A stretch of 64,000 nt of DNA from Flavobacterium gelatinilyticum (GTDB lineage Bacteria > Bacteroidota > Bacteroidia > Flavobacteriales > Flavobacteriaceae). This document shows, piece after piece, positions 2,777 to 47,415 of this stretch (within the stretch, counting starts at the first letter, position 1; each line of letters begins with the position of its first letter). Made by a program: the position numbers and the translations under genes. The notes below the pieces were generated by a model that did not search any database, was not told the origin of the DNA, and worked only from the letters and a program-made list of their open reading frames with translations. The DNA lies in the NCBI RefSeq assembly GCF_027111295.1, contig NZ_CP114287.1:682001-746000 (forward strand). The letters run 5' to 3'.

Positions 2777-3069
2777 AATAGAGCCAAATAAAGACAATTC
2801 TGGCTTAATGGCAATAATCTTCTCGAATCCTACATAATATTTGTAGAATTGTATATTAGTTTACTGCCATAAACCAATTTAGTTTCTATAATTTTTACAT
2901 CAATCCTAACAGAACATCCAAACCAAATTTATAAAGCCAATGAAAGACAGGCACTACATGTAGTAAGCTAATTTCTTTAAATCATCCAGAAATGATGTTG
3001 TAATTTGTCCTGTCGAGGTCACAACGCCAAATGGCGCCAATTGAAGACAATTGGCGCCATTTTTTATTT
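2777..3069 (+). repeat. Structured intergenic repeat, copy 1 (type I, with upstream module A)
   Basis: First of eight copies. Module A (2777-2870, beginning GAGCCAAATAAAGACAA) precedes the main body. The body is closed by ACAGAAC (2909-2915) against GTCCTGT (3007-3013), 6 of 7 pairs. It is followed by GGTCAC and a perfect 13-bp hairpin at 3031-3060: left arm ATGGCGCCAATTG, loop AAGA, right arm the complement, then TTTTT. The strong hairpin plus T-run looks like an intrinsic terminator for a + strand transcript. Neither neighbouring gene points this way, since both are on the minus strand, so the element is not the tail of a neighbouring gene. Candidate independent small-RNA gene. Confidence 0.75.
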
Positions 3070-3130
3070 ATTTTTACTATATAATCAACTTAAAATAATT
3101 TTTTCCTTTACTTTCTCTTTTTGACTGAAA

Positions 3131-4624
3131 TTAAATTTTTACTACAGACGGAGGCGTCCATTGATTTTTAATAACGGACTGCTTTGGGCCGTAGCATCTG
3201 AAATATAAACAGAAATCATCTGCAGGGCTTGGCAGCCAATTGGCTTTTTTGTCCCCTTCAGGCTCCGCATGCTGCACATACAATGTAAGGGAACCATCGA
3301 CATTGTACTTTAAATCCCGGTTTTTGGTTCCAACCGAATAGCGTTTTATGACATTGGGATAGAAAAAGTGATGCTCGTCATAAAGTGTAAGAGACCAGAA
3401 GCCGTCTACAGGCGGAAGGTTACCTTTTGCAAATGTCAGGGTATACTGTTTAGAACCATTCAGTCGAGATCCTTTTGAATCGAGATCCTGATAAAAATAC
3501 TTTGTTTCTTTACCTGCATTCACCAGTATATTGGATTTTGCTATGGCTGTACGGGTGAAATAATCCGTTCCAAAAGCAGCACAGTTATCGGCAGTGGTCC
3601 AGTTCCCTGGAAGAGGTATTCCCCAGTTGCGAAATTGCAGTAATGGATCAACCAGTTCTTTGTCCGCTTTATGGGCTTCATCAATCATCGCTTTTTTCAA
3701 TGCAGGATCTTTCTTTGCTGCTTCGATCACCGACAGTACCTGTGCGTAACGAGCTTCCTCGCCGGGCAATGGAGGAGCATCTTTCAATACAATAGGAAGC
3801 TGATCGAAAAAGGTATCTGGAAAGACCCATTTCGTTTCTTCAGATCCGCCATCTTTTGTCGGCGAACCTAAGGATGGAAGCCTACTCCAGTCCTGCTGTT
3901 TCATTTTTCCGTCAAATTTATCCAGAGCATAGACATCAATAGAATTAATTATGGCCTGGACTGCATTTTTATCTGAGGGCGTATCATCCTGAAAAACTCT
4001 AGGTACAATAAAGGCTGTGCCTGTTTTGCTGTAAAATACTTTAGTGATTCCTTTAGGCACCTCTCCTTTCCAGTTAGGCCCCGCCAGCATGTAAAACCCT
4101 GGTTTTGTACCATACATCTTCCCAAGCTGGGCAAAAGCATCTGTGCGAAGATCCACCACCTGATATACCCAGAAACGCTTGCCAAAATCCGGAACCTGTA
4201 TCACGACGGGAGTCTCATCAAGAGCGGCAATAGCAGCTCCGTAAACCACATCCTGATTTGGACAGGCAACCCAGCGCTGTTCAGGCTTAATATAATCATG
4301 CAACATTGCCAAAGAATTTAATGGCGCAAATGGCAGTACGCCATTCATAAGACCTACTTTTGGTGACTGCTTGAACGCAAGACGTCTGTTGTAAATGTTT
4401 TCCATTGGCCAAGCCCAGAAATAGGCATCTCTTGCGACCTGTCTTGCATAAGATTCTGTAATCTTTACATTTACATCGGGGCCATTCGGTACTGAATCCG
4501 AAAATTTGCCTGAAACATCAGCATCAGTTTCTGCAGAAGATAATGTTCCATTTTTATCACTTTTATTCTGATTGCACGCTGTCATTGCAAGAAGTACAAT
4601 GATTAAAATCAATTTGTTTTTCAT
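3131..4624 (-). CDS. DUF1254/DUF1214 lipoprotein
   Basis: A 497-residue protein with a lipoprotein signal: hydrophobic stretch, then LLAMTAC with Cys17 as lipidation site. The N-terminal half is a DUF1254 domain (DAYFWAWPMENIYNRR near residue 65, then NQDVVYGAA and the PDFGKRFWVYQVVDLRTD block). The C-terminal quarter is DUF1214 (GFWSLTLYDEHHFF, KRYSVGTKNRDL, DGSLTLYVQHAEP, ending near WTPP). The length is normal for the fused family. The biochemical role of this family is not established, so no function is claimed. Two broken relatives lie at 4653-4945 and 12199-12555, so this is the surviving member of a small local family. An intergenic structured repeat ends about 60 bases beyond its stop codon. 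Confidence 0.9.
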   Translation of the reverse strand: MKNKLILIIVLLAMTACNQNKSDKNGTLSSAETDADVSGKFSDSVPNGPDVNVKITESYARQVARDAYFWAWPMENIYNRRLAFKQSPKVGLMNGVLPFAPLNSLAMLHDYIKPEQRWVACPNQDVVYGAAIAALDETPVVIQVPDFGKRFWVYQVVDLRTDAFAQLGKMYGTKPGFYMLAGPNWKGEVPKGITKVFYSKTGTAFIVPRVFQDDTPSDKNAVQAIINSIDVYALDKFDGKMKQQDWSRLPSLGSPTKDGGSEETKWVFPDTFFDQLPIVLKDAPPLPGEEARYAQVLSVIEAAKKDPALKKAMIDEAHKADKELVDPLLQFRNWGIPLPGNWTTADNCAAFGTDYFTRTAIAKSNILVNAGKETKYFYQDLDSKGSRLNGSKQYTLTFAKGNLPPVDGFWSLTLYDEHHFFYPNVIKRYSVGTKNRDLKYNVDGSLTLYVQHAEPEGDKKANWLPSPADDFCLYFRCYGPKQSVIKNQWTPPSVVKI

Positions 4625-4652
4625 CTTTTAAAATTTAAAAAATAACTATAGC

Positions 4653-4945
4653 TTATTTAATTTTTTCTACGTCATTTAGTTTCCACCTCTGATCATACAG
4701 CTTTGGAGTTGGGCCTTAAAAGCGGGCTAAAATTTTAAATTTCCCTTTAGGGTCCGTTGGAATTCAATTTGATTCGCCGGATTCAGGTGCAGTTGATTTT
4801 AGCAAAAGCATCAACCGCTAGTTGAAAATGTACTGCCAGCATGCACCAAATGGCAGATTCTATTCCTCGTTGATACAAAATCTGTTCCTGAATATTATCG
4901 TGCTTAAAATCTGGAATTGCCGAAACCTTACATAATCTACTAAAA
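4653..4945 (-). pseudogene. Remnant of a DUF1254/DUF1214 gene (internal deletion plus nonsense mutations)
   Basis: Translating the minus strand recovers two family fragments joined directly. The first (about 4920-4800) reads IQEQILYQRGIESAIW then CMLAVHFQLAVDAFAKIN, matching the start of a DUF1254 domain. The second (about 4790-4653) reads TAPESGESN, stop, IPTDPKGKFKILARF, stop, GPTPKLYDQRWKLNDVEKIK, matching the DUF1214 C-terminus. The stops stand where Trp (NWIPTDPKG) and Tyr (RFYGP) are expected. The two parts are in different frames. The middle of the gene is gone, so the locus is non-functional. It lies just upstream of the intact paralogue on the same strand, suggesting an old tandem duplication. 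Confidence 0.8.
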
Positions 4946-5255
4946 AATAAACAATTTCAAATTATTATACAGTTTAAAGCTACAATATTTTTTTTAAAAT
5001 ACATTAACTTTTATGCACAAGTATAAAAATCAACAACATTAACTAGAGCTTCTCGTCCAAGTATCGTTTTTGCTTATGTCAAGTCATGGCAATTTTTGCT
5101 CTGGACTTGGTACTATCATGCCACAAAATGTTAATGAGAATATTAAATAAGTTCAGCAAACCATTCAACTACACATATGTACACAAAATATCGGGAAGAC
5201 TTATCAAACCATAAAAAAATGAAAAAGATTTATTTAAATACAAGATTGTAATTTA

Positions 5256-5400
5256 TAGAGCCATAGAAAGACAATTTTACCTTAACTTAAAACATTCTTT
5301 CAAAATCCTCGATAATAGTTGTAGAATTGTATAGTATTTTATAGAAATAAATCAATTTTTAACCTCAATCGAACGACATTTAATGAGTTAATTAAATATT
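5256..5400 (+). repeat. Solitary module A of the structured repeat family
   Basis: Starts GAGCCATAGAAAGACAA and continues with AACATTCTTTCAAAATCCTC and TTGTAGAATTGTAT, matching the upstream modules at 2777, 11823 and 25615. Unlike those it is not followed directly by the body; the nearest body (copy 2) begins about 240 bases further on, in A+T-rich sequence with no gene. Basis: eye alignment only. Confidence 0.55.
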
Positions 5401-5639
5401 TTTTATCTTCCAGAAAATAGGCAAATTAAATGTCCAATTCAATTACTTTCTGATTGGATTAAAGCAATATGAAAACACTAGTATCCTTACCAAATTTTAA
5501 TTTGAATAATCTACGAATTATTATATAATTTTACTAAAAACTGGCTCACTTTCTTCAGGAAGTAATAAATTTTATTGTCAAAAATTTTTTCTAAACCTTT
5601 ATATCTTAATAAATATAAATATATAGATGTTTTAACATT

Positions 5640-5827
5640 TTTTAACTTTTAACCCTTACAATACATACAAACCGCTTCCAAATAAAAAATCAAAATAATT
5701 ATCTTACAAATTCACTTGAAAGTAAGCCAATTTCTTTAAATCATTCATAAAATGGTTTGTAAATTGTTCAGTAAGGGTCACAAAGCCAAATGGCGCCAAT
5801 TGAAGATAATTGGCGCCATTTTTTTAT
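5640..5827 (+). repeat. Structured intergenic repeat, copy 2 (type II)
   Basis: Body closed by ACCCTTAC (5652-5659) paired perfectly with GTAAGGGT (5771-5778), a different helix sequence from type I copies. The interior keeps the shared stretch AAGCCAATTTCTTTAAATCA and a small hairpin (AATCATT against AATGGTT). The terminal hairpin is at 5789-5820: arms AATGGCGCCAATTG and TAATTGGCGCCATT, loop AAGA, with one G-U pair, followed by a T-run. It lies between divergent genes. Nearly identical in body to copy 6 at 33.1 kb. Confidence 0.75.
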
Positions 5828-5960
5828 TTACATTGGTAGATAAACTAACTTTGAATCATTTTTTTGTTTTATTTTCTTTTTTTTAGAATCACGTTAAAAC
5901 AAAAAAACAGCTGCTATAGATTTTTTATAAAAAAAATTAGATGTTTTTTTAAATTTTTCC

Positions 5961-6000
5961 TTCGATTACTTAACAGGATTCGAACACCCAGAATGGAGAA
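5961..6000 (+). repeat. Conserved box downstream of the structured repeat (first copy)
   Basis: Contains AACAGGATTCGAACACCC preceded by CGATTACTT and followed by AGAATGGAGAAATT. Close copies stand at 22429-22470 and 33331-33372, and a degenerate one at 25963-26002. Each lies about 100-150 bases beyond the terminator hairpin of a structured repeat (copies 2, 4, 6 and 5). GATTCGAAC recalls a tRNA T-loop, but no tRNA can be folded around it. Confidence 0.6.
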
Positions 6001-6107
6001 ATTATGACTTTTTAATGTCCTTATTTTTTTCTCTAAAAAAATAGACTATTTGCTAAAACACAACAATTGGCTTCCAATACGCAGTTCTTCAAAGAGAAAA
6101 CAGGGCT

Positions 6108-6203
6108 ATCCGGCAGCTGTAGCCCCGATAGCAGTGGAAATCCTTTTGTGCCGGAGTTCGGCGCAAAAGATTGCAACGCATAGCGGGAATAGCTCCTGAA
6201 AAA
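6108..6203 (+). repeat. Second intergenic repeat family (TAGCCCCGATAG type), copy 1
   Basis: Begins GCTGTAGCCCCGATAGCAG and ends CATAGCGGGAATAGCTCC. The middle folds into a 10-bp hairpin, TTTTGTGCCG against CGGCGCAAAA with one G-U pair. The TAGCCCCG and CGGGAATAGCT ends could pair partly. Copies recur at 41378-41472 and 43739-43853, and partially at 6224-6297. Many-copy intergenic repeats of this look occur in Flavobacterium. It may belong to the Flavo-1 RNA family, but I could not compare it with that model. Confidence 0.55.
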
Positions 6204-6223
6204 TAATATTATAAAATTTACAC

Positions 6224-6297
6224 GGGGCTGGGCACAAAGGACTGCTTCGCCAGTTCACTGACGCTCGGGTGGAATGCATAGCGGGAACAACTCCTTC
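6224..6297 (+). repeat. Second intergenic repeat family, partial or variant copy
   Basis: Reads GGGGCTGGGCACAAAGG, then CTTCGCCAGTTCACTGACG, CTCGGGTGGAATGCATAGCGG and AACAACTCCTT. The final part matches the end of the 6108 copy, and the middle matches the insert seen in the 43739 copy (GACAGTTCGCTTGCGCTCGG). A solitary module-A-like stretch follows (about 6297-6400: CATAGAACCAAAGAAAGACAA, TTTGTCGAATTGTAT). Confidence 0.45.
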
Positions 6298-6539
6298 ATA
6301 GAACCAAAGAAAGACAACTCTGCATTAAAGCAAAACAATGTTTTTAAATCCTTTCTAATATTTGTCGAATTGTATTATAGAGACCTAAATTTTTATCAGC
6401 CAATATTGGCATGAAATAAATCTAAGAATTGATTTTTCATAAATTCAATTGTTAATTACTGCTTAACTAAGGCAAAAATTGGGTTATTCCCATTATAAGT
6501 TTCTTTCAAATCTAAAAAAATAAATGCGGAAAAAATATG

Positions 6540-6547
6540 TAACTTTG
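6540..6547 (+). promoter_or_regulatory. -7 promoter box TAACTTTG
   Basis: Exact match to the Bacteroidota -7 consensus TAnnTTTG. It ends four bases before the ATG at 6552, so transcription would start at or within the first codons (a nearly leaderless mRNA). No convincing -33 TTG is visible at the usual distance. Confidence 0.5.
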
Positions 6548-6551
6548 CCTT

Positions 6552-6977
6552 ATGAGAAGAAACGGCGAAATAATTATAATTGAGGATGATGAAGATGACA
6601 GAAATTTTCTTAAAGACATATTTGAGAGTCTGGGGTATCCGAACAAAGTAGTTTTTATCGAAGATCCTACTCTGGCTATTCCCTATTTATCTTCTCCAGA
6701 TATAAATCCTTTTCTCATTCTTTCTGATATCAATATGCCGAAAATTGACGGTTTTCAATTACGAAGCCAGATTCTAGCTAATGATGATATAAGTGAAAAA
6801 TGCGTGCCGTACATTTTTCTTTCCACTTCGAAAAATCCTGAAAACGTAACAAAAGCCTACGCTTATAATGTACAGGGCTATTTTAGCAAAGAAGAAAATT
6901 TTCCGGCTTACAGGTTAATGATACAAAATATAATGGAATACTGGAAGACAAGCCTGACCCCTGTAACGGTTTGCTGA
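6552..6977 (+). CDS. Single-domain response regulator (CheY/Rcp1-like)
   Basis: A 141-residue receiver domain without output domain. The acidic pocket is IIEDDEDD (residues 8-15), the phospho-acceptor Asp lies in LILSDINMPKIDGF (near residue 58), the switch Ser/Thr in FLSTS, and the conserved Lys in YFSKEENF near residue 112. Such regulators pass phosphate between kinases or bind partner proteins. The large multi-PAS kinase and a second receiver protein lie just downstream on the opposite strand and are the natural candidate partners. The start is fixed by the -7 box immediately upstream. Confidence 0.88.
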   Translation: MRRNGEIIIIEDDEDDRNFLKDIFESLGYPNKVVFIEDPTLAIPYLSSPDINPFLILSDINMPKIDGFQLRSQILANDDISEKCVPYIFLSTSKNPENVTKAYAYNVQGYFSKEENFPAYRLMIQNIMEYWKTSLTPVTVC

Positions 6978-7077
6978 TAATTACTGCTGTTTTATCTTAA
7001 TATTGCCGGCTTGCTGATTTATAAAAATTTTTACTGCAATAAAGTCATTTTTTTCTTGAAAACCCGGCAGCATTAAA

Positions 7078-7458
7078 CTATAATATTAATTCCTTAAGCA
7101 TTCTGACCAGTTCATTATAACTGCTGGGTTTGCTCATATACCGGATAATCTCTCTCTTTTCCAGAAGATCGAAAACAAATTCTTCAGAAGGAGTTGAAAT
7201 TAATATTACCGGAATGCTTCTCAATTTCTCTTTACTTTTCATCTGCTGCAGGAAGTCTTTGCCATTCATTAACGGCATATTGTAATCTAAAAATATCAGG
7301 TCGGGAAGATTTTCTAAAGTTTCCAGTTCCTGCAATGCCTTTACAGGATTATCAATGTGGCGCATTATTATTTTTTCATTGACAAAACCGACAGCCTCCA
7401 TAAATATTTCAGCGTCATCGGGATCATCATCAACCAGAAGTATATTTTTATATAACAT
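7078..7458 (-). CDS. Single-domain response regulator (CheY/Rcp1-like)
   Basis: Receiver domain starting MLYKNILLVDDDPDDAEIF, with the phospho-acceptor Asp in LIFLDYNMPLMNGKDF, Ser in LISTPSEE, and Lys in YMSKPSSY. The frame stays open back to 7539, but those 27 extra codons have no homology-like pattern, so I chose the ATG at 7458 just before the receiver fold. It lies 87 bases downstream of the multi-PAS kinase on the same strand, so the two are probably co-transcribed and this protein is the likely phosphate acceptor. No DNA-binding domain. Confidence 0.88.
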   Translation of the reverse strand: MLYKNILLVDDDPDDAEIFMEAVGFVNEKIIMRHIDNPVKALQELETLENLPDLIFLDYNMPLMNGKDFLQQMKSKEKLRSIPVILISTPSEEFVFDLLEKREIIRYMSKPSSYNELVRMLKELIL

Positions 7459-7545
7459 AAGTGTTTTTTCTTTAACCTTTCGGTTCGGCAGAGAGCAGCT
7501 CTTTATAATATACGCATTATTGCTGCAACAGGTTTGCATAATGCT

Positions 7546-10500
7546 TTAAGATGCAGGAAGAAAAATATGAAATGTGGTTCCCTTTCCATATTCTGATTCT
7601 GCATACATTAACCCATGATGATTGTTGACAATTCTCCTGCACAGCGCCAGTCCGATGCCGCTGCCGGGAAAAATATTCTGTTCGTGCAGCCGTTTGAAGA
7701 TTTCAAAAATCTGCTTCTCATAGCCTTTTTCAAATCCAATTCCGTTATCACTGAACAAAATGTGATGATACTCTCCTTCAACAAGGGGAGAATCTGTAAA
7801 CTGGGCCGCATAATCATGCGGTACCAGAACAGCGCTTATTGTAATTTTCGGCGCAATATCATCTCTGGTAAATTTCAGCGAATTGCCGACCAGATTATAA
7901 AAAAGCTGATTCATCTGAAGACCGACAGCTTTTACAACCGGCAGCTTTCCAGCTTCAATTGAAGCATTTTTTTCCTCAACAGCCAGCTCAAAGTCAATCC
8001 AGATATTTTTGATAACTTCATTCAGATCAATCGCCTGCTGGCTCTTTTGAGGCTGTATCAGTCTTGAGAAAGCAAGAAGATCAGTAATGAGCTGGCTCAT
8101 CCTGGCTGCAGAAAAAGTTATTTTTTCAATCATTATCTTAGGATCTTTACCAGGGTGATTCTCCTGAAGCAGGCCTGCAAAAATCTGAATTTTCCGAAGC
8201 GGTTCCTGAAGATCATGGCTTGCCACATATGCAAACTGCGCCAGCTCCTGATTGGAATGCTTAAGGGCATCATTGGACTGTTCTAAATCAGCATTGGAAG
8301 ACTGCAACTCTTTCAGCACTGCCGCAAGTTCTTTTGTCCTGAGCTCCACTTCACTTTCAAGGGCAAGCTGAAGTTCCCTGTGGATCGTAATATCCTGAGC
8401 AGTCCCCTGAATCACCGACGGCTTCCCATCCAGATCAAAATAAGTCTGTCCCACTGCATGAATAACCTTTTCCTGTCCCGTAATGCCGTGTATAATTCTG
8501 TATTCAGCCTCATATCTGCCTTCTGAACCTGGTTTCTGGGCTGCAAAAAATGCCTCAGTCACCCGGTCATAGTCTGAAGGTTTTATCAGTGCGCGTATTT
8601 CCGATGACGGCATTTGGGCTGCCTTTAATCCGAACATGGAAGCGTGACGCTCTGATACTGTGGTAATTCCCGAAGATATGTCCAGTGACCATGTTCCGAG
8701 CTGCGCCACTTCTACTGCAGAGCGGAGAGCAGACTCTGCCTGTTCCGCTTTTTTTATTGAAACAATTTCATCTGTGACATCCGAACCGACATAAAGCACA
8801 GCATAAACTTCTCCCCTCTCATCGTTTAGAGGAGTCAGGCTGATATTATGATAACGGATTTCTCTTTCTTCGGTATTAATTCCAGGCATGCCGCCGGCAT
8901 AAAAACTTTTTCCTGAGCGAAATACCTCCTGTGCCGATTTTAGGAAATTCTCCGAATTGCTGGATTTCAGCACTGCCTTAAGAGGCTGTCCTATTATAGA
9001 ACTTCCCTTATTAATGACAGCCATAAAACGATCATTAGGATTTTCAATGACTAAATCCCTGCCCGCAAATACGCTTATCGCAACAGGGGCAGCATCTAAA
9101 ACAGTGCGAAGCTTGGATTCGCTTTCCTTAAGGGCTATTTCTGTCAGTTTACTCTGCGTAACATCCGTTGCATGAACAATTACTCCTATTACCTCCCCAT
9201 CATTATTTTTATGTGGCGTATATACAATGCTCAGCCATCTGGTGATTCCCATGCGTGAGGGCGCAAACATTTCATATTTCTCCTGATCTCCGCCGTAAGC
9301 AATTTCAAGATGGGGAAGTGTTTTTGCGTACGCAGCTTCTCCCAGAAATTCTCTTACGCTTTTTCCTATGGCTTCACTCGCGTCTACAGAAAACCAATCC
9401 ATAAAAACCCTGTTATAACTCTGGTAGCGCTGTTCCTTATCTAGATAGAAAATCATGGCCGGGACTGTATCGCGCAGTAACTGCAGGTGGGCTTCACTTT
9501 CCTGCATTGCTTTTTGCGCGATGACCTGCGCCGTCACATCAATGGCAATATCTAAAATAGCATAAATTTCTCCTGATTTGTTTCGCAGCGGTGTATAGGA
9601 AATATTGTAATAGTTATTATTCAGCACTCCATTCTGCATTATTTTCACCAGTGAAGCAGGAGAAATAAAAGGAATTCCGGTTGTAAAGACATCATCAAGA
9701 ATTTTAAGGTAAGCCTGGCCCTCAGAAATAAGTTCAGGCATGGCTTCTCTTAACGGCAGTCCTAAAATATCAGGGCCTTTGCCCACTATATCTATAAATG
9801 TCTGGTTAGGATATTCTATAATCAGGTCGCGGCCGGTAAACAGGCCAATGCCTGCCGGTGCCGCCGCAATGAGGTTTTTTAGTTTTGTTTCACTTTCTTC
9901 CACTTCTCTGCGGCTCAATACCTGTCTGGTTACATCAGTTGCAACTACCAGTATAACAGCTGGTTTACCTGCAGCATTCCGATTAATCTGATAGGTCAGA
10001 TCCACATAAATATGCTCCAGCTTTTCATTTCTAAGCAATTCAACCTCCACTTCCTTAGCAATAAAAGCATTACCGGTACGGATTACTTCCCTCAGCAGAT
10101 CATCAAAACCCTGCCCCTTGAGCTCCGGAAGTGCCTCAAGAAGGGGTTTGCCGATAATATCTTCAGCTTTGCGGCCTACCAGTTCGCCGTAAAAAGTATT
10201 GGCGCTTATAAAAACCAGATCATCTCCTATTCCTATCGTGGCAATACCGACGGGAGACTGCTCAAACATAACAGCGAGCTCGTTGTGGCTCTCTGAAGCC
10301 TGCTGCTGTGCTTTCACTGCAGGTGTTACATCCGAATACATAGCAAGAACGGCATAAACGGCGCCGGTCTTATCAAAAAGAGGTGTCAGGGAATAATCGA
10401 AATACTGTTCTTTTTCTGATTTTACATTTTTTATTCTGGCTGCTGTAGCTTTGTATTCTTTTCCAGTCAGATAAACTTCATTGAGCCTGTCATATAAATC

Positions 10501-11565: not shown

Positions 11566-11822
11566 TCTTTGTAGTATTTGATTTCAAATGGAAAGGTAGC
11601 GTAATTTTAACAAATCACCAATTAATTTGATTGTCCATTATTTGAACCGGACTGCATCAATTTATTACAATACTAGTGACTAATTTAATCTGCTGGCCTC
11701 CTAAAAACATCTCGAAACGTATTTCCAGTTTCAGAGAAATTATGAATTGTAAATCTTGATATTGATTGTTTTCCTACTGAGGTAAAAAATTGGTTCATAG
11801 CTCTAAATCCAAAACAGAAATT

Positions 11823-12116: not shown

Positions 12117-12198
12117 TTAAAAAAAAATATTAATCAATATATTATCGAATTTTTTGTTTTTACTTCCTTTGTTACCACCCTTTTATTTCGTTTTATTG

Positions 12199-12555: not shown

Positions 12556-12697
12556 CTAACATATTAAATAAAGTATAGTAATTTATATAAAACTTGTTAC
12601 TCTTTAATCAATTTTCTGATTAAGTTTAAGTAAGTTAAAAATATGATACCTTTAATAACAATCAAGCTATTTTACAACAATAAGAACAAATCATTTT

Positions 12698-37658: not shown

Positions 37659-37669
37659 GTTTTTTATTT

Positions 37670-39001: not shown

Positions 39002-39023
39002 TTATTGTACATTGTTTATTATT

Positions 39024-39036
39024 TGAACATTGTTCA
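39024..39036. promoter_or_regulatory. TetR-type operator upstream of the efflux operon
   Basis: Palindrome TGAAC-ATT-GTTCA, the same half sites and 3-base centre as the operator in front of the regulator gene. A weaker similar stretch (TGTACATTGTTTA) lies 8-20 bases closer to the start codon. Confidence 0.75.
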
Positions 39037-39057
39037 TTTTTTTGGGCAAAAAAATTT

Positions 39058-39675: not shown

Positions 39676-39696
39676 ACTTATTTTTATTACTGCAGA

Positions 39697-39727
39697 CAAA
39701 GATATAAAATAAAATGAACGCTGTTCA
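39697..39727 (-). promoter_or_regulatory. tetR promoter and operator
   Basis: On the minus strand the -7 box TATCTTTG (39704-39697) matches TAnnTTTG. The palindrome TGAAC-GCT-GTTCA (39715-39727) lies immediately upstream, between the expected -33 and -7 positions, a typical autorepression layout. Confidence 0.75.
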
Positions 39728-39758
39728 TTTTTTATTCAGTTAAATATTTTTATACAAA

Positions 39759-40526: not shown

Positions 40527-40552
40527 AATTTTTCTATTTAGTTTATTATTTC

Positions 40553-40611
40553 TATATTTGCTTGCGAAATGCAAGTGCAAATATAAATACATTTACTTGC
40601 AAAAAGCAAGT
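40553..40611. promoter_or_regulatory. Divergent promoters sharing HxlR operators
   Basis: On the + strand, -7 box TATATTTG (40553-40560) directly abuts operator 1, CTTGC-GAAAT-GCAAG (40561-40575). On the minus strand, another TATATTTG (40585-40578) lies two bases from the other side of operator 1. Operator 2, ACTTGC-AAAAA-GCAAGT, is at 40595-40611, 35 bp centre to centre. Both divergent genes would thus be switched by the same sites. Confidence 0.75.
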
Positions 40612-40628
40612 GATTTTAATTTTATTTT

Positions 40629-41042
40629 ATGAAAACTCAAAAAAAGAGATCAGACTGCCCGGTAAGTTTTTCACTTGAAGCCTTTGGTGACAAGTGGTCG
40701 CTGTTGATTGTTAGAGATTTAATGCTTAAAAAAAAATGTACCTATGGCGAATTGGCAAAATCCGATGAGAAGATCGCAACTAACATTTTAGCCGCTCGAC
40801 TGCTCTCGTTAGAAGAAAACGGAATTATTCAGAAAATGGAGCATCCCGACAGTAAAGCCAAAGTATTGTATCAATTGACACAGAAAGGAATGGATTTAAT
40901 TCCAATAATTGTTGAAATTAATCTTTGGGCAGAAAAGTATACCAACATTCCTGAAGAAAGAAAGGAATTGCTGGCACAAATGAATGCTGATAAGGAAGGA
41001 TTTATTAAAAATGCTTTAAAAGAACTTGAATTAAATCTATAG
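40629..41042 (+). CDS. HxlR-family transcription regulator
   Basis: A 137-residue winged-helix protein with the HxlR signature: CPVSFSLEAFGDKWSLLIVR, LMLKKKCTYGEL, IATNILAARLLSLEENGII, and the LTQKGMDL wing. The single N-terminal Cys (SDCPVS) in this family often senses electrophiles or redox stress. It most likely represses the divergent SDR gene and itself through the CTTGC-N5-GCAAG sites. Confidence 0.9.
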   Translation: MKTQKKRSDCPVSFSLEAFGDKWSLLIVRDLMLKKKCTYGELAKSDEKIATNILAARLLSLEENGIIQKMEHPDSKAKVLYQLTQKGMDLIPIIVEINLWAEKYTNIPEERKELLAQMNADKEGFIKNALKELELNL

Positions 41043-41184
41043 TATAGATTACATAGCTACTACTTTTTTTGCCACGATAAATTTGGACTGGAATGTGCAT
41101 GACAAAACACGCCCCCGCAGGTGCAGAACTGCCTCCAATTTTGTCACACAAGCTAAGGCGGTTTTAATAAAAGAGGTTAGCGAT

Positions 41185-41345
41185 TTGTTCAAACCAAATT
41201 ACCAAAGCCACTGGAAGACAAACAACTACATATAATAAGCCAATTTCTTCAAATCATCCAAAAAAAATGTTGAAATTTGTCCCGTCGGGGTCACAAACAA
41301 GCCAAATGTCACCAATTGAAGACAATTGGTGACATTTTTTTATAA
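41185..41345 (+). repeat. Structured intergenic repeat, copy 7 (type I, covarying hairpin)
   Basis: The body is recognisable from CAAACCAAATTACCAAAGCC to GTCCCGTCGGGGTCAC; the 5' partner of the closing helix is degraded here. The terminal hairpin at 41304-41337 is perfect over 15 bp but with stem AAATGTCACCAATTG instead of AAATGGCGCCAATTG. Two bases in each arm have changed together. T-run follows. Confidence 0.75.
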
Positions 41346-41377
41346 CCTTACTTATTTTTATTAGTCAAAAGTGCCGG

Positions 41378-41472
41378 GCTCCTCAGCAGCCCTAGCCCCG
41401 ATAGCAGTTAAAATCCTTTTGCGCCGGGGTTCGGCGTAAAAGATTGGAACGGATAGCGAGAAGAGCTCCTAA
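41378..41472 (+). repeat. Second intergenic repeat family (TAGCCCCGATAG type), copy
   Basis: GCAGCCCTAGCCCCGATAGC, hairpin TTTTGCGCCG against CGGCGTAAAA with one G-U pair, then GGATAGCGAGAAGAGCTCC. The hairpin differs from the 6108 copy by a compensated change (GTGCCG/CGGCGC against GCGCCG/CGGCGT). It overlaps a 65-codon ORF that I consider spurious. Confidence 0.55.
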
Positions 41473-41651
41473 AAAAACACTGTCAATCACAGTATATTTT
41501 ATCATGCTAATAGCAATTCATATTATCTTAGACAGGCCGCTTGCAATCAATTCATCACTGGCATATTTTTTCTTAGGATGTTTTAAAAAACCTATTCTAA
41601 GAAAAAAAAATTACGGACCTGCAGGTCAAAAGAAAAAATAATCTTTCGCTT

Positions 41652-42806
41652 CTATTTCAGCCTGAAAATCAGCCGCTGAATAATCATAAGCCAGATTGCA
41701 GTCAGCATCATCGTTGAAGTAATTACAGCCAATGTTATTTGATACGTATAATTTTCTACTAATTTTAAAGAAGCTGCCATGGTCATTAAAATAAAACTGA
41801 ATTCCCCTATCTGCGATAAGAGTGCCCCTGCATATAAACTGTCTCGCCAGGAGTTCTTAGTCAGTTTAAAAAGAATGGTATTAATCAGGCTGTTTATAAA
41901 GAGTACTGAAAATGAAATCAATATAATTGTACCTGTATTTTGAATAAAAAAATTAATATCTAACTGCAGTCCTACAGCTAAGAAAAAGAAAGCCATAAAA
42001 AATACCCTAAAAGGAATAAGGGAACTACCCAGCCAGCGGGTTGCCTTATCATGCCCGATTAATATTCCTGAAGCAAAAGCACCAAAGGCAGTAGACAAGC
42101 CAAACCATCCGCTGATCCAAGCCATTGTGAAACAGATACTAAAGCCGATAAAAACCTGCAGTTCATGGTCAACAGTAATCTCTTTGCGCATCGGAATTTT
42201 AAAAAGTTTTTTAGTCAGAGCCCCTTTCAAAAAAAGAATCATCAATACGCCTCCTGCGCATACTTTTATCAATTGAACTGCTGATACAGCGGTACCTGAC
42301 ATAAAATTCAAAGCCAGCATCATAGGTATAACCAATATATCCTGCATTAATAATACACCGCAGGTAATCATGCCGAGCTGACTTTTAATTTGGCCTGTTC
42401 TGGCCAGATACTGAAATACAATGGCCGAACTGCTGATGCTGATTGTAAAGGCAGTCAGTACAATTATTGTCATTTCCCATCCTGCATATGATCCAACAAA
42501 ATACATGCAGATAAAACTAAGCACGACCTGAACAACTGAAATCAACAGCGGCTTGTAAAAATTACGCGTGAGATATTGAAGGTCAATCTCGCTTCCTATG
42601 GAAAACATCATAATAATGATCCCTATCTCACCAAGCTCTGATATCACATCAGGTTTGTGGATAATATTAAATACCTGAGGACCTAAAAGCACACCGGCCG
42701 CTATGTAGGCGATAAAATAAGGCTGCTTTAACCGCCGAAGCAATAAAATCAACAATAAGACAATAAGGGAAAGCACAGCAATCCCCGAGAATAATTGTGA
42801 GAGCAT
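41652..42806 (-). CDS. Cation/proton antiporter (CPA2, Kef/NhaA-like membrane domain)
   Basis: A 384-residue protein with about 12 membrane helices, matching the Na/H-exchanger domain of CPA2 transporters: QPYFIAYIAAGVLLGPQVF, MMFSIGSEIDLQYL, AFTISISSSAIVFQYL, FGAFASGILIG. It lacks the cytoplasmic TrkA-N/TrkA-C nucleotide-binding domains of KefB/C, so it is a membrane-only form. Probably exchanges K+ or Na+ for protons. Sits 67 bases downstream of the Hsp20 gene on the same strand with a hairpin between. Confidence 0.88.
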   Translation of the reverse strand: MLSQLFSGIAVLSLIVLLLILLLRRLKQPYFIAYIAAGVLLGPQVFNIIHKPDVISELGEIGIIIMMFSIGSEIDLQYLTRNFYKPLLISVVQVVLSFICMYFVGSYAGWEMTIIVLTAFTISISSSAIVFQYLARTGQIKSQLGMITCGVLLMQDILVIPMMLALNFMSGTAVSAVQLIKVCAGGVLMILFLKGALTKKLFKIPMRKEITVDHELQVFIGFSICFTMAWISGWFGLSTAFGAFASGILIGHDKATRWLGSSLIPFRVFFMAFFFLAVGLQLDINFFIQNTGTIILISFSVLFINSLINTILFKLTKNSWRDSLYAGALLSQIGEFSFILMTMAASLKLVENYTYQITLAVITSTMMLTAIWLMIIQRLIFRLK

Positions 42807-42824
42807 ATTTTAAATTATTATCAA

Positions 42825-42851
42825 GAAAGCTGCCTTTATGGGGCAGCTTTC
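42825..42851 (-). terminator. Hairpin between Hsp20 and antiporter genes
   Basis: Perfect 10-bp arms GAAAGCTGCC and GGCAGCTTTC with a 7-nt loop. On the minus strand the following T-run is poor, so it may be a partial terminator or a processing site rather than a full stop. Confidence 0.6.
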
Positions 42852-42873
42852 AATAAAAAATTCATAAAAGTTT

Positions 42874-43326
42874 TTAAGAAATCTCTATCATCCTTGGAGA
42901 CTTTTGTCTGGCCTGTTCCAGTTTTGGAATAGACAGCAGTAAAATTCCATTTTCGTATCGGGCACGAATTCTATCTTCGTCCACTACATTTTTGGGAAGC
43001 ACAAAACTTCTCTGGAAAGATTGGTAGCTGAACTCTCTGCGGGTGTAATTTTCTTGCTCTTTATTAACGTGTTCCTGCTTAAAGGAAGAAATAAGCAGCT
43101 GTCCATTATCAAGGGTAACCTTAAAGTCATCCCTGCTCATGCCGGGAGCTGCAACCTCTACTTCATAATTCTCGTCAGTTTCCTTAATATTCACTGAAGG
43201 CAGTGTGGTGCTTGTGGTTGAAAAATTGTTGTTTTCCCAATTGAAAAGATCGCGGCCAAAAACATCATCAAAAAACAAGCGTTGGAAAGCCGGCACATGG
43301 CTTCCGTTTCTTTTAATAAGATTCAT
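42874..43326 (-). CDS. Small heat-shock protein (Hsp20 family)
   Basis: The start at 43326 (MNLIKRNGSHVPAFQRLFFD) is preferred over the in-frame start at 43428, whose 34 extra residues look like translated promoter. 150 residues with an alpha-crystallin domain: NYEVEVAAPGMSRDDFKVTL, YQSFQRSFVLPKNVVDEDRI, YENGILLLSIPK. Holdase chaperone that binds unfolding proteins. A plausible promoter (-7 CACCTTTG near 43370, minus strand) and a large inverted repeat at 43423-43459 lie upstream. Confidence 0.93.
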   Translation of the reverse strand: MNLIKRNGSHVPAFQRLFFDDVFGRDLFNWENNNFSTTSTTLPSVNIKETDENYEVEVAAPGMSRDDFKVTLDNGQLLISSFKQEHVNKEQENYTRREFSYQSFQRSFVLPKNVVDEDRIRARYENGILLLSIPKLEQARQKSPRMIEIS

Positions 43327-43422
43327 AACAGTAATTTTTAAAATTGTTATACAATAAATTTTTGAACTTGCACAAAGGTGTGCACAAGGAAAAAAAACAA
43401 AAAATATGCCAGGGATTAATTC

Positions 43423-43459
43423 TGACATTTTTTCATAGTAGAAAAATGAAAAAATGTCA
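43423..43459. promoter_or_regulatory. 14-bp inverted repeat upstream of hsp20
   Basis: Perfect arms TGACATTTTTTCAT (43423-43436) and ATGAAAAAATGTCA (43446-43459), 9-base spacer. No T-run beyond, so an operator or a transcript hairpin upstream of the hsp20 promoter is more likely than a terminator. Confidence 0.55.
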
Positions 43460-43532
43460 TTTTAATCTACGATGAAGACCTTTTTTCGCACTGCTTATTT
43501 TCAGTATTGAGAGAATCTGCTGTCCTTACTTT

Positions 43533-43727
43533 TTACGATCCAAATTTAGAAGTTTCAGGAAAAAATGTCACTTCACCTGTAGAAATGTCGTGTGATCCTC
43601 CAACAATTCCAATTTCTCCATTTTCAATCATTTCTTTCAATATCGGACTGCGCTGCATTATCGATGAAACGGTACGCTTAACAATCTCTTCAAATCTACT
43701 CGTGGTTTCTAATTCAATAAAGAGGTT
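43533..43727 (-). pseudogene. C-terminal relic of a beta-carbonic anhydrase
   Basis: 65 codons on the minus strand read NLFIELETTSRFEEIVKRTV, SSIMQRSPILKEMIENGEIG, IVGGSHDISTGEVTF, then a stop at 43533. This is the characteristic end of beta-class carbonic anhydrases. The frame closes upstream at a TAG at 43728-43730. The catalytic zinc-binding half is missing. Nine bases further the TAGCCCCGATAA repeat copy begins, so the break coincides with that repeat. Confidence 0.78.
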
Positions 43728-43738
43728 CTAATACGCAG

Positions 43739-43853
43739 CTTTCCTTAGCCCCGATAAAAGTGAAATCCTTTGCGGCGGAACTTGACGCAAAGATTGCTTC
43801 GACAGTTCGCTTGCGCTCGGGTGGAACGTATAGCGCGGAAAAGCTCCTAAAAA
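43739..43853 (+). repeat. Second intergenic repeat family, long copy
   Basis: CTTTCCTTAGCCCCGATAA, hairpin GAAATCCTTTGCGGCG region against CTTGACGCAAAGATTGC, then GACAGTTCGCTTGCGCTCGG and TATAGCGCGGAAAAGCTCC. Longer than the 6108 copy by an insert also present in the 6224 copy. It abuts the carbonic-anhydrase relic. Confidence 0.55.
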
Positions 43854-43918
43854 GACAATTAAATAGAATAAAGGGCATAATTGTAGAAAAAAAGCCAACT
43901 TCGGGTATGAATTCCTTA

Positions 43919-44422
43919 TTAGTCCCGCTGCGATATATTCTTTTCAGAAACAAAAAATAAACTTATAACGGGTCTCAATAAAGCTTTGGCCCAGTGCAGA
44001 AGAAAGACTTTCTTTAGCAGCAGCACAAAGCCGGCAAAAGAATTTGGCTTCTGGACATAAAGGTCCGCCCCCTTTTCAAAGGTATCTTCAATATCCGAAG
44101 GATGGTTCCAGGTGGAGAGCATGACCGCAGGAATGTCGCGAAGCTCTTTATCGCCCTTTATTTCTTTCAGCGCCTGTTTGCCCCCTTTAACAGGCATATT
44201 GACATCTATAAAAATAATATCGGGATCGGGCTGGGATTTATCCCTGAGTGTATTCACGAGCTGCTGCCCGTTTTCAACCGCAGTTACCTCAGAGGGAATA
44301 TCAGCTTCATCAAGGGCATCAATGAATAATTCCTGATCGTCCTTATCATCCTCGGCCAGTATAATTTTTACCGGCTCCTTTTCATTTAAGTTTTCACCAG
44401 AGGGGGTTTCAGAGCTTGTCAT
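43919..44422 (-). CDS. Single-domain response regulator with long C-terminal extension
   Basis: A 167-residue receiver protein: KIILAEDDKDDQELF, phospho-acceptor Asp in IIFIDVNMPVKGGKQAL (near residue 75), MLSTWNHPSD, and Lys in LYVQKPNSFAGF. The last 25 residues (ALLRPVISLFFVSEKNISQRD) extend beyond the receiver and could come from fusion with intergenic sequence. No DNA-binding domain and no neighbouring kinase; related in type to the receivers at 6552 and 7078. Confidence 0.82.
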   Translation of the reverse strand: MTSSETPSGENLNEKEPVKIILAEDDKDDQELFIDALDEADIPSEVTAVENGQQLVNTLRDKSQPDPDIIFIDVNMPVKGGKQALKEIKGDKELRDIPAVMLSTWNHPSDIEDTFEKGADLYVQKPNSFAGFVLLLKKVFLLHWAKALLRPVISLFFVSEKNISQRD

Positions 44423-45194
44423 CTTTAGGCAGTTTTACAATTCTCAAAAGTACGGAAAATACATAAATGAAATGATAACCTGCAAAATTTAAAACATCGA
44501 GTTTAAGGGATTCTGTCTGAAATGATCTTTGGTCATCTATAGATGCTGGCAGTTTTTACTACTGATATTGAAACTGAAAATGACAGGCAGGCAAAAAATA
44601 CTAGATACGTTAATATATTTGGATGATAAGGAATATATTTTTTAAACTCATTACTCATTACTGACAGAAGTTACATTACTATAAAAAAGGGCCTTATTAA
44701 ATTACAGAATAAAGTTCTTTTGCAATTAACTGAATTAGCATTTAACCGTTTTTTAGCGCCCTAGTTAATCACTGAATTACGTTTAAGGAACAAAGGATTA
44801 TACCAAATTCCGGGCAGTTAAGAATAAATCCATATCATTGGTTCAAATCGTACCAATAATTATAGGTAGTGTTAAATACTAGAGACAAATAGTGAAACCT
44901 CCTTTAAAAATGGTTTACTATATCATCATCTCTTGAATTTTCATCTCTTATAACTTGATTACTAGTTGTTGCTCGACTGAGGCAAAATATGGTTGGTTCC
45001 TCCAGCACTTGTATATTGGGTTGATTTTGCTTTTCTCATTGTCTGTAAACATCATTAAACTGATATAGCATCAGCTTGAATAGTAATGCTATAAATGTAG
45101 TACTATTAAAAACATTACTGGAAATAAACCCCTGGTTTGATTGGCTTTAGAATTATTATTTTAAGTTTAATATGACTCGCCGATTTTTAATTCG
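44423..45194. other. Intergenic stretch between regulator and SDR gene
   Basis: About 770 A+T-rich bases with no gene remnant found. It contains TTGCTCGACTGAGGCAAAAT at about 44970, weakly similar to stretches near 11772 and 22760 that also contain ACTGAgG followed by AAAAaTtG. These may be a minor repeat. The promoter of the response-regulator gene should lie near 44423-44550. Confidence 0.35.
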
Positions 45195-45260
45195 GACGTT
45201 TAAACAATGTATATTGAGACGTTTAAACAAAGTCATGTGTTCGTGTATCCTCTAATTTTG
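45195..45260 (+). promoter_or_regulatory. Promoter with 13-bp direct repeats upstream of the SDR-AraC pair
   Basis: GACGTTTAAACAA occurs twice (45195-45207 and 45218-45230), 23 bp apart, about two helical turns. This is the classic layout of AraC-family activator sites. A -7 box TAATTTTG (exact TAnnTTTG) follows at 45253-45260. No clear -33 TTG is present, as expected of an activator-dependent promoter. Confidence 0.65.
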
Positions 45261-45287
45261 TCCTGTTAAATAACTTAAATTAAAAAA

Positions 45288-46283
45288 ATGGAACAGAATA
45301 ATTATCAGGGAAAATTGCAGAAAGCTACAGGTTCCGGATTTGATGCCAAATCCACCTCAAACAAGGTTATAAAAGGAATTGATCTTAAGGGAAAAATTGC
45401 CATTGTTACGGGCGGAAATACAGGTATTGGTCTGGAAACGGTGAAAACACTTGCCAGAGCCGGCGCAACAGTGATCGTACCTGCCAGAGATGTCGAAAAA
45501 GCCAAAAGAAATCTGGAAGGAATTGCAAATGTGCAAATAGAAAAAATGGATTTAATGAATCCCGATTCTATAGATGCTTTTGCTGAAAAGTTTTTGCTTT
45601 CAGGACAACCGCTTCATCTGCTCATTAACAATGCAGGAATTATGTGGGTGCCGCTCCGCAGGGATAAGCGAGGATATGAATCGCAGCTGGCAACCAATTA
45701 TCTGGCGCTGTTTCAGATCACAGCAAGATTATGGCCTGCATTAAAAAAAGCAGATGGCGCAAGGGTGGTTAATGTTTCTTCAGGAGGACACCAATTTTCA
45801 GATTTTGATTTTGAAGATCCTAATTTTCTAAATCGGGAGTATGAAACTTTGCAGGGATATGGACAGTCAAAAACAGCAGTTAATCTTTTTTCGGTTGAAT
45901 TAGATACACTTGCAAAAGCCTATAATGTGCGCAGTTATTCTTTATGTCCGGGCGCTGTTGGAGAAACAGAATTAGCAAGGGAAGCACCAGTTGATTTGTT
46001 TCAAAAACTGGGTTACAGTGATGCTGAAGGAAATATACTGCCGGAAGTTGCAGCGTCATTAAAAACAATTCCGCAAGGTGCATCTACAACCCTTTGGGCA
46101 GCCACGAGCAAATTGCTGAATGATATTGGCGGGGTTTATTGTGAAAATACAGATATAGCAGCATTGAGTTCAAATGATGCAATTATTGGCGGTATTAAAT
46201 CGTATTCATTAGATCAAAAAAATGCAAAACGTTTGTGGAAATTAAGCGAGGAGATGACTGGAATAAAATTCGATCTTCATTAA
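45288..46283 (+). CDS. Short-chain dehydrogenase/reductase
   Basis: A 331-residue SDR of the longer retinol-dehydrogenase/WWOX-like type. NAD(P)-binding VTGGNTGIGLETVK (near residue 40), NNAGIMWVP, catalytic Tyr-x3-Lys in LQGYGQSKTAVNLF, and LCPGAVGETELARE after it. Substrate unknown. Three bases separate its stop from the start region of the AraC regulator; the two likely form one transcript induced from the direct-repeat promoter. Confidence 0.9.
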   Translation: MEQNNYQGKLQKATGSGFDAKSTSNKVIKGIDLKGKIAIVTGGNTGIGLETVKTLARAGATVIVPARDVEKAKRNLEGIANVQIEKMDLMNPDSIDAFAEKFLLSGQPLHLLINNAGIMWVPLRRDKRGYESQLATNYLALFQITARLWPALKKADGARVVNVSSGGHQFSDFDFEDPNFLNREYETLQGYGQSKTAVNLFSVELDTLAKAYNVRSYSLCPGAVGETELAREAPVDLFQKLGYSDAEGNILPEVAASLKTIPQGASTTLWAATSKLLNDIGGVYCENTDIAALSSNDAIIGGIKSYSLDQKNAKRLWKLSEEMTGIKFDLH

Positions 46284-46313
46284 TATTTGTATCTTTATAC
46301 CACACAAGCAATT

Positions 46314-47132
46314 ATGGATTATCAGGTAAATTACATAAACCCAGAGATTAAACTTTCTAGTTATACCGGCAAGCTGTTTAAAACGGAAGCCGCGTTTAAT
46401 GATCATTTGCTTGTGTGGTTAATTTCGGGGGAAACGAAAATTATTCAGGCAGATGAAACTTTTGTATTTGGTGCTGGAAATACTTTTTTAATTCCCCGAA
46501 ATCAATTGGCTGCCATCATTAATATTCCAAAAGATGGTTTGCCGCACAAAGCAGTTGCCATGCATTTATCGGCAAAAAGACTTCGGGAATTTTATGATCA
46601 CGAAAATGCAAAGTTAAAAACGGCGACACCAAAAATTTTCAGTTTCCATAAACATCCTTTATTGGAAAGCTGCTTGGCTTCGCTGATTCCTTATTTTGAA
46701 ATGCAGGAAAATTTTCCCGAAAATATCGCTTCCTTAAAAATTACTGAGGCAATTTCGATACTTAGAACTATTGACCCGCATATAGATGCTGTACTGGCAA
46801 ACTTTGATGAACCTTACAAGATTGATTTAATTGCTTTTATGGAGAAGAACTTTATGTTTAATATGCCATTGGAAAAGTTTGGCTATTTAACAGGCCGGAG
46901 TCTGACCACTTTTAAGCGTGATTTTCATAAGGCTTTCAACATTACACCGCAACGCTGGCTAACCAAAAAAAGATTAGAACTAGCCCATTATCAGCTTAGT
47001 GAAAAAAACAAAAAACCTGTTGACATTTATTATGAAACAGGTTTTGAAAATTTATCGCATTTTTCATTTGCATTCAAAAAACAGTTTGGTTATTCGCCAA
47101 CTGAATTGCAAAGAATGAATAAAAATTTTTAA
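46314..47132 (+). CDS. AraC-family transcription regulator
   Basis: The start at 46314 (MDYQVNYINPEIK) begins the cupin-like sensor domain; an ATG at 46287 is possible. 272 residues. The C-terminal double helix-turn-helix reads KFGYLTGRSLTTFKRDFHKA, then NITPQRWLTKKRLELAHYQL and YETGFENLSHFSFAFKKQFG. It probably activates the SDR gene directly upstream through the two GACGTTTAAACAA sites and so also itself. Confidence 0.9.
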   Translation: MDYQVNYINPEIKLSSYTGKLFKTEAAFNDHLLVWLISGETKIIQADETFVFGAGNTFLIPRNQLAAIINIPKDGLPHKAVAMHLSAKRLREFYDHENAKLKTATPKIFSFHKHPLLESCLASLIPYFEMQENFPENIASLKITEAISILRTIDPHIDAVLANFDEPYKIDLIAFMEKNFMFNMPLEKFGYLTGRSLTTFKRDFHKAFNITPQRWLTKKRLELAHYQLSEKNKKPVDIYYETGFENLSHFSFAFKKQFGYSPTELQRMNKNF

Positions 47133-47240
47133 AGGATTGTTTGGTTAATGGCCTCTCTAAAAACGAGTGCTGTTTCTTTCAAATTTGCTGTAATAAGCTA
47201 TGCAAGTTTATCTACTTTAAATAAATTATTACGTAATTCA

Positions 47241-47415
47241 TCAATCCCCACCGGGTCATCCAAATCAAATTCATAAATCCAATGAAATACAGATAATTAC
47301 ATATTAATAAGCCATTTTCTTCAAATCATCCAAAAACAATGTTGAAATTTGTCCATTCGAGGTCATAAAAGCCGAATGGCACCAATTGTCTTCAAATGGT
47401 GCCATTTTTGTTTTA
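47241..47415 (+). repeat. Structured intergenic repeat, copy 8 (type I, decayed)
   Basis: Body from ATCCCCACCGGGTCATCC to TTTGTCCATTCGAGGTCAT; the closing helix no longer pairs well. The terminal hairpin at 47375-47406 pairs 13 of 14 (arms AATGGCACCAATTG and CAAATGGTGCCATT, loop TCTT) with a T-rich tail. A GC pair of the usual stem (GGCGCC) is here A-T, changed on both sides. It lies between convergent genes. Confidence 0.7.

Follow-up and report, generated by a model that had tools for sequence, protein, structure and literature searches.

Repeated elements across the window and the host chromosome

The window analyzed here is a stretch of 64,000 nucleotides (positions 682001-746000) from the single-contig 5.83-Mb genome of Flavobacterium gelatinilyticum, hereafter the host, and our subject is a family of intergenic elements that recurs in it between blocks of genes. 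Eight copies of a 65-nt core segment lie in the window, all on the + strand and with 75-100% identity to the reference copy, and next to each of them, downstream, stands a hairpin with a T-run. Each element consists of two halves joined at a short conserved core, mostly GTCAC: the left half (the body) closes one gene cassette, and the right half (hairpin and T-run) opens the next one. The preliminary description of this DNA had reported eight intergenic + strand elements with a shared body ending in GTCAC and a strong hairpin with a T-run after each. The elements are real and the hairpin is present at all eight, that of copy 5 (core at 25857) being unrelated in sequence to the others, but the family is not confined to the window (it extends over 636-827 kb of the chromosome) and its copies are heterogeneous. 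Most bodies are as described; copies 2 (5777) and 6 (33167), however, have a second body type (type-2), copy 7 has a shortened body, and copy 8 has GTCAT instead of GTCAC. Several copies also carry R1, a decayed second body, on their upstream side.

A search of the whole genome (40 of 43 candidates scored) returned 25 matches, all within 636-827 kb, with 17 on the + strand and 8 on the - strand; the eight - strand matches represent the palindromic hairpin only. When nhmmer was run on 320 kb (560-880 kb), 16 + strand copies were recovered at E <= 3.3e-29, eight of them inside the window, which rules out chance for the element family. The host has 17 clear body sites, all on the + strand and 93-292 kb downstream of the gene for tRNA-Arg(ACG), and the core is GTCAC at 13 of them; degenerate sites lie near 634.0, 653.0 and 843.5 kb. 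The segments between recognized sites are multi-gene and span 1.4-45 kb.

Comparison with the arrays of F. chungbukense and F. anhuiense revealed the same cassettes behind differing neighbors. Cassette C is 99.5% identical to F. chungbukense DNA over 5920 nt (the match ends at about position 11641 of the window), and a stretch of 11.4 kb that element 2 closes is 98.5% identical in the same species. Cassette G, which encodes efflux functions, is shared over 8.2 kb at 95-96% with both F. chungbukense and F. anhuiense, and its neighbors differ. Other shared pieces are less alike: about 3.5 kb of cassette F match contig C4 of F. anhuiense at 84-87%, and a piece at 771-773.7 kb is shared at 78%. 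Next to the array, on its tRNA side, chromosomal identity is 73-83% with F. anhuiense and, over 1.5 kb, 78% with F. chungbukense. Element 2 is the clearest junction, with contig C14 of F. chungbukense to the left of its core (98.5%) and contig C9 to the right (99.5%).

We quantified such junctions by comparing the arms of 44 sites (946 pairs; two sites were placed a few bases off), a shared arm being at least 80% identity over 500 columns. An outer arm was common to 15 of the 946 site pairs, one-sided in 14 (the other side 52-67% identical) and two-sided in 1, and a changepoint test on the 14 one-sided pairs placed the switch at most 5 nt from GTCAC in 6. At the level of sequence, these data indicate that the DNA between elements moves as units, the cassettes, and that body and hairpin are swapped independently.

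The tRNA-Arg(ACG) anchor and adjoining serine recombinases

The host tRNA-Arg(ACG) gene (542857-542931) lies upstream of the array on the same strand as the sites. Its 3' end reads ...GTCGAG and then GTCAC, followed by a hairpin and then by a gene for a large serine recombinase (LSR). In F. anhuiense, whose tRNA-Arg(ACG) is identical to that of the host, one array "site" is itself the 3' end of this tRNA gene (CGAG, then GTCAC, with a hairpin directly after it), and the array begins there. A hairpin with a T-run was found behind GTCAC at all nine tRNA loci displayed (of 13 processed), the hairpin sequences being variable.

Of 149 Flavobacterium genomes searched, with no more than 5 candidates scored for each, 27 contain sites (E <= 1e-12). 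Among the 80 of 120 stretches listed in a scan of genome contigs, 70 belonged to Flavobacterium, 2 to other Flavobacteriaceae and 8 to organisms elsewhere, the last of which we take for chance matches. Clusters of at least two matches within 200 kb numbered 22, and 21 of these kept to a single strand. The main tRNA-site search located the tRNA in 16 of the 27 site-bearing genomes, with G086, G096, G125, G138 and G175 outside the comparison. The tRNA and a site shared a contig in 13 of the 16, and in all 13 a site lay downstream on the strand of the tRNA; the sites of G080, G094 and G131 are on contigs other than that of the tRNA. Six further genomes (the host, F. anhuiense, F. chungbukense, G004, G007 and G008) agree on contigs that hold both. 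In six array-free genomes, apt and the tRNA stay together, and most of the subsequent genes lack counterparts in the array regions used for comparison.

LSR genes abut both the tRNA and the sites. The host has three LSRs matching PF07508, located behind tRNA-Arg(ACG), at 786.9-788.4 kb in the array region and, elsewhere, behind tRNA-Arg(TCG); the frame of the first (542896-544446) continues through GTCAC into the tRNA gene. F. chungbukense has five, of which four stand behind tRNA-Arg(ACG) or a site and the fifth behind tRNA-Arg(TCT), and in this species the 5' end of the host LSR cassette recurs behind an array body (right arm 87%, left arm 52%). Both the Resolvase and the Recombinase domain were detected in all four array LSRs scanned (Pfam, each scanned singly). 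A PF07508 match is present in 22 of 27 site-bearing genomes versus 8 of the 20 Flavobacterium genomes examined outside this group, and an LSR stands directly behind tRNA-Arg(ACG) in half (8/16) of the genomes in which the main search located this tRNA. ARAGORN, run on 59 LSR loci of 1.7-3.4 kb each (six further PF07508 matches had no locus), found a tRNA or tmRNA near the LSR at 14 of 29 loci in one set and at 23 of 30 in the second.

All eight members of one LSR cluster (at least 60% identity) abut a tRNA-Arg gene (4) or an array body (4), two each being located behind tRNA-Arg(ACG), tRNA-Arg(TCT), type-1 bodies and type-2 bodies. Their eight junctions have a common cassette 5' end, (T)GAGGAGACAA../..TTGTCTCTTTTTTT (GAGACAA..), with small changes, and the cores are GTCAC in four, ATCAC in two and TTCAC in two. 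To judge from these junctions, tRNA end and body look like equivalent addresses for this family. Several genomes also have LSRs behind a cluster of tRNA-Ser/Pro/Arg(TCT) genes (loci L117, L122, L123, L305 and L322), which is likely a second array locus, and a parallel system in another family (G040 and G053) seems to occupy tRNA-Arg(TCT), with sites reading TTCAC and then TTAATGACACC.

We consider it very probable that the elements are attachment sites through which an LSR system stacks cassettes of several genes behind tRNA-Arg(ACG), all in the same orientation. The 3' end of this tRNA gene would have been the founding target, and a cassette would be laid out as core, terminator-like hairpin, cargo genes, body and core. 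An LSR would catalyze the integration of a circular cassette by way of the core, at the tRNA first and later at any body, with the crossover presumably at a base within or close to GTCAC. Because the body appears to imitate the tRNA 3' end beside the core, each insertion would restore the target, and a tandem array in one orientation would build up. The hairpin at the cassette 5' end occupies the position of the tRNA terminator and probably serves as a terminator when its cassette is first in line. Cassettes with an LSR gene behind the core are likely autonomous members. Those of the window would rely on an LSR acting in trans, because no recombinase was found among the 36 window proteins scanned with Pfam (of 75 open reading frames [ORFs]; the scans left out, among others, the ORFs from 49.7 kb on and a 187-aa ORF at 30495-31058). 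A tblastn search of the window with 26 LSR frames gave only tail matches, at sites 2 and 6.

Alternative explanations and the antisense tail

Several observations weigh against such a system. In the host, the first 91 kb behind the tRNA contain no body recognized by the site scan, 4 of the 17 cores differ (GGCAC, ATCAC, GTCAT and GTCGC), and the second LSR of the array region (786878-788446) has no recognized site beside it. In other genomes, one match in cluster G072:C72 breaks the strand rule, matches lie far from the tRNA in G077 (at 4224341), G142 (at 5324076) and G115 (at 2301917), G008 has two matches 660-720 kb away from it, and PF07508 has no match in 5 of the 27 site-bearing genomes (F. 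anhuiense, G004, G074, G096 and G138). The length of the body exceeds what an LSR half-site should require. Plasmid and phage collections gave no match at E <= 1e-5, and a plasmid or phage carrier was rejected on this result. The mechanism proposed above is read from anatomy.

Could ordinary homologous recombination between repeats, with the sites as mere shared homology and no site-specific enzyme, produce the same pattern? In 8 of the 14 one-sided pairs, the switch lies 41-206 nt off the core, where a body or hairpin common to the two partners ends, and homologous recombination could have produced these eight because the switch is at the edge of a shared repeat. Type-1 bodies are also alike over their full length, with a mean column identity of 77%. 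However, the six pairs that switch beside the core are unlike on the other side, the tRNA 3' end and the array bodies accept the same cassette 5' end, and LSR genes adjoin sites that point one way from the tRNA; as an account of the whole array, homologous recombination is therefore very unlikely. The preliminary description had favored an undescribed small-RNA family, with body and hairpin forming one transcript of 170-300 nt that ends at the hairpin. In favor of such a family, the conserved DNA is intergenic and a good terminator-like hairpin stands next to it. Against it, no Rfam family reached its gathering score at the elements. Body and hairpin are also not inherited together: from genome to genome they separate at or close to GTCAC and are exchanged independently. 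RNAalifold gave 0 consensus pairs and no covariation on the bodies, the named body stem pairs no better than shuffles (79.9% versus a mean of 81.2%), and in most sites the body reads, in antisense, as a continuation of a recombinase frame. The hairpin as proof of RNA was rejected as well, the tRNA-Arg gene having hairpins of other sequence in the equivalent position. We find the small-RNA proposal barely tenable. A further suggestion in the same description, a non-autonomous mobile element carrying a terminator, came close, since the segments between elements behave as cassettes that each start with a terminator-like hairpin.

Same-orientation cassettes that each end in a recombination site also recall a superintegron, with folded single-strand sites joined by an integron-type tyrosine integrase, and imperfect inverted repeats (ACAGGACA/TGTCCTGT) at the body ends had suggested an attC-like folded site. 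This candidate was rejected on the folding results just given, and a tyrosine integrase at the array was rejected after a search of the host genome, in which PF00589 (Phage_integrase) has only four matches, none of them at 530-900 kb; we regard a superintegron-like array as extremely improbable. Beside R1 of copy 1, a stop-broken reading on the minus strand (2620-2790) resembles what we take to be the end of an IS6-family transposase. An insertion sequence remnant as the origin of the family was rejected because this reading occurs left of copy 1 only and is thus adjacent.

With the elements read as attachment sites of an LSR system, the coding content of the body deserves separate weighing. 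At 28 of 40 sites, the minus strand of the body continues the frame entered by a host-type LSR from the next cassette: the tail VTxTGQITTSFLDDLKKLAYYM meets a stop at codon 22 in 24 sites, and the type-2 tail VTLTEQFTNHFMNDLKKLAYFQVNL meets one at codon 25 in 4. The TTTCTTCAAATCATCCA of the preliminary description is the antisense of the DDLKK codons. In contrast, tRNA-located LSRs of the host type end in antisense-tRNA residues, e.g., VTSTGFKPVTF, and among the best 120 of 626 LSR homologues, 95 fit a loose antisense-tRNA pattern and 53 a strict one. The ratio pN/pS was 0.54 in the tail frame versus 1.87 and 0.91 in shifted frames, on 29 of the 40 sites, chosen for an ungapped frame, which are related copies compared without a significance test. 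One potential explanation is that integration splits the LSR gene and the array makes it whole again, the body carrying interchangeable last 22-25 codons in antisense. A cassette landing on the tRNA would leave its LSR ending in antisense-tRNA codons, whereas one located behind another cassette, or circular, would regain the tail. In this reading, array sites would not only be targets but would also switch the recombinase on, and arrays would favor their own growth.

We regard a split gene as a tentative and rather unlikely idea, against which several results count, as does the selection of sites for pN/pS. The tail frame stops early in 9 of 40 sites and late or never in 3. Among the best 120 of 626 homologues, tail-ending ones number four (P0001, which is the query, P0016, P0029 and P0056), and only P0016 of these has both LSR domains. 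In a gapped alignment, the tail part differs at 0.213 per column pair versus 0.229 in the remaining body; an apparent twofold higher variation of the DNA past the stop had come from ungapped strings, and the gapped values removed that argument. Since conservation in the tail part does not exceed that in the remaining body, we slightly lowered the probability given to the split gene.

The features of the window and the clear body sites of the host are collected in Table 1. Two Flavo-1 RNAs (Rfam RF01705) at 6117-6194 (74.8 bits) and 41390-41467 (63.7 bits) both lie near a cassette 5' end, and a related 54-nt pair is found at 6237-6290 and 43789-43842. Three cassettes contain TTAACAGGATTCGAACAC (5960-5990, 22430-22460 and 33335-33365), about 170-195 nt past the core; on the opposite strand it resembles a tRNA T-arm, and similar spaced motifs flank the LSR cassettes in G040 and G053. 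Most copies have AAGA as their hairpin loop, and those at 33174-33217 and 47370-47413 have the reverse complement, TCTT; the F. anhuiense counterpart of a TCTT-loop cassette has an AAGA loop beside a right flank of 97% identity, the pattern that an inversion of the hairpin in place would leave. An internally repetitive gene of 3933 codons (genome 671824-683625) reaches into the window (1-1625) and is partly common with contig C14 of F. chungbukense. Directly upstream of the first recognized sites (628494-632747; L014:8494-12747) are genes that we take to resemble DNA polymerase IV, error-prone DnaE and then an AlkB-like gene.

Table 1. Elements and cassettes of the window (window coordinates) and clear body sites of the host (genome coordinates)
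Feature	Position	Strand	Remark
R1, decayed body paralogue upstream of site 1	2776..2852	+	
Site 1, type-1 body (cassette 3' end)	2895..3022	+	core GTCAC 3018-3022; antisense tail frame ~2954-3022
Terminator-like hairpin and T-run after site 1	3025..3068	+	5' end of next cassette
Cassette B	3018..5776		DUF1254/DUF1214 protein
Site 2, type-2 body	5653..5781	+	core GTCAC 5777-5781; antisense tail frame ~5704-5781
Terminator-like hairpin after site 2	5784..5827	+	cassette 5' end
Cassette C	5777..12066		Flavo-1 RNA, response regulators, PAS histidine kinase
R1, decayed body paralogue before site 3	11804..11899	+	
Site 3, type-1 body	11942..12071	+	core GTCAC 12067-12071
Terminator-like hairpin after site 3	12076..12119	+	cassette 5' end
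Cassette D	12067..22254		PAP2, two-component system, outer-membrane beta-barrel, sulfatase, lipid kinase
Site 4, type-1 body	22131..22259	+	core GTCAC 22255-22259
Terminator-like hairpin after site 4	22262..22305	+	cassette 5' end
Cassette E	22255..25856		two proteins without Pfam match
Site 5, type-1 body	25731..25861	+	core GTCAC 25857-25861; R1 at 25609-25687
Terminator-like hairpin after site 5	25866..25903	+	different sequence (AAACGTTAAATC..GATTTAGCGTTTTTTTT); cassette 5' end
Cassette F	25857..33166		ArsR-type regulator, GNAT, DUF6428, SBF transporter
Site 6, type-2 body	33043..33171	+	core GTCAC 33167-33171
Terminator-like hairpin after site 6	33174..33217	+	loop inverted (TCTT)
Cassette G	33167..41289		RND efflux operon, TetR, SDR, HxlR
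Site 7, shortened type-1 body	41187..41294	+	core GTCAC 41290-41294
Terminator-like hairpin after site 7	41300..41343	+	cassette 5' end
Cassette H	41290..47361		Flavo-1 RNA, Na/H exchanger, Hsp20, response regulator, SDR, AraC
Site 8, type-1 body	47238..47366	+	variant core GTCAT 47362-47366
Terminator-like hairpin after site 8	47370..47413	+	loop inverted (TCTT)
Clear body sites of the host, first nine	636315, 664342, 685018, 687777, 694067, 704255, 707857, 715167, 723290	+	
Clear body sites of the host, last eight	729362, 773942, 798501, 805511, 814793, 817577, 826766, 835215	+	

Relation to known cassette and island systems

Read as attachment sites, a puzzling repeat becomes the map of a gene-exchange system, in which the seams between blocks of accessory genes are readable, and points to a little-noticed route by which Flavobacterium may gather and swap gene modules. 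Cassettes for two-component signaling and for efflux occur in more than one species at 95-99.5% identity, others at lower identity, presumably through passage of DNA between cells, and the ends of such cassettes can now be read from sequence. A search of the open-access full-text literature found such Flavobacterium arrays in no title or abstract, subscription journals lying mostly outside the search.

Integron arrays hold many same-orientation cassettes with one recombination site each, mostly without a recombinase, and in these respects the Flavobacterium array is like them. It is unlike them in its multi-gene segments, which are of the size given above and each open with a terminator-like hairpin, and in having neither a tyrosine integrase in the region searched nor a folded attC-type site. 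The tycheposons of marine bacteria may be a further likeness. In the staphylococcal cassette chromosome (SCC), several cassettes can sit in tandem, the target is the 3' end of rlmH and the recombinases are the pair ccrA/ccrB. Flavobacterium cassettes, in contrast, are inserted at tRNA-Arg or at array bodies, LSRs of unlike families occur in one array, and the host array has 17 clear sites. As in SCC and the Enterococcus cassette chromosome (ECC) with their CcrA/CcrB recombinases (PMC6222049), LSRs lie beside an attachment site and variable cargo occupies one chromosomal site.

Islands targeted to tRNA genes share a further trait. Such islands insert at tRNA genes, which is attributed to tyrosine integrases (Islander, PMC4383910), and the Riemerella 10K island lies next to tRNA-Arg (PMC6764341). 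The Flavobacterium cassettes resemble these islands in their apparent insertion at a tRNA gene and in importing a piece that imitates the tRNA end, and differ in their serine recombinases and long cassette array.

Dehalococcoides offers another parallel. There, tandem islands lie downstream of ssrA, with direct repeats of the ssrA 3' end at their borders (PMC3146451); a reverse-strand DsiB gene beside the left site runs with its 3' end into the site and has no stop until past it; and the integration module is missing from 15 of 31 islands. Similarly, the host has 17 same-strand sites behind tRNA-Arg(ACG), with repeats resembling the 3' end of the target gene, and its LSR at 542896-544446 overlaps the left site; the type-ii LSRs differ, ending a few hundred nt short of the core with no overlap with the site. 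Against the tmRNA gene (ssrA) with insertion in the T-loop and repeats of 20 bp, the Flavobacterium target is tRNA-Arg(ACG) with a 3' terminal core and a body of 130 nt. In Dehalococcoides, the integration module comprises six genes, among them a second, small recombinase. McMurdie and colleagues raise the idea that the DsiB gene is possibly intact only when its island is circular or follows another one (PMC3146451), and this idea of a recombinase complete only in those two states becomes testable in Flavobacterium. By analogy, the array appears to work like the Dehalococcoides ssrA islands and SCC/ECC while missing the defining target gene of each, and it would add tRNA-sited serine recombinases that stack cargo in Bacteroidota.

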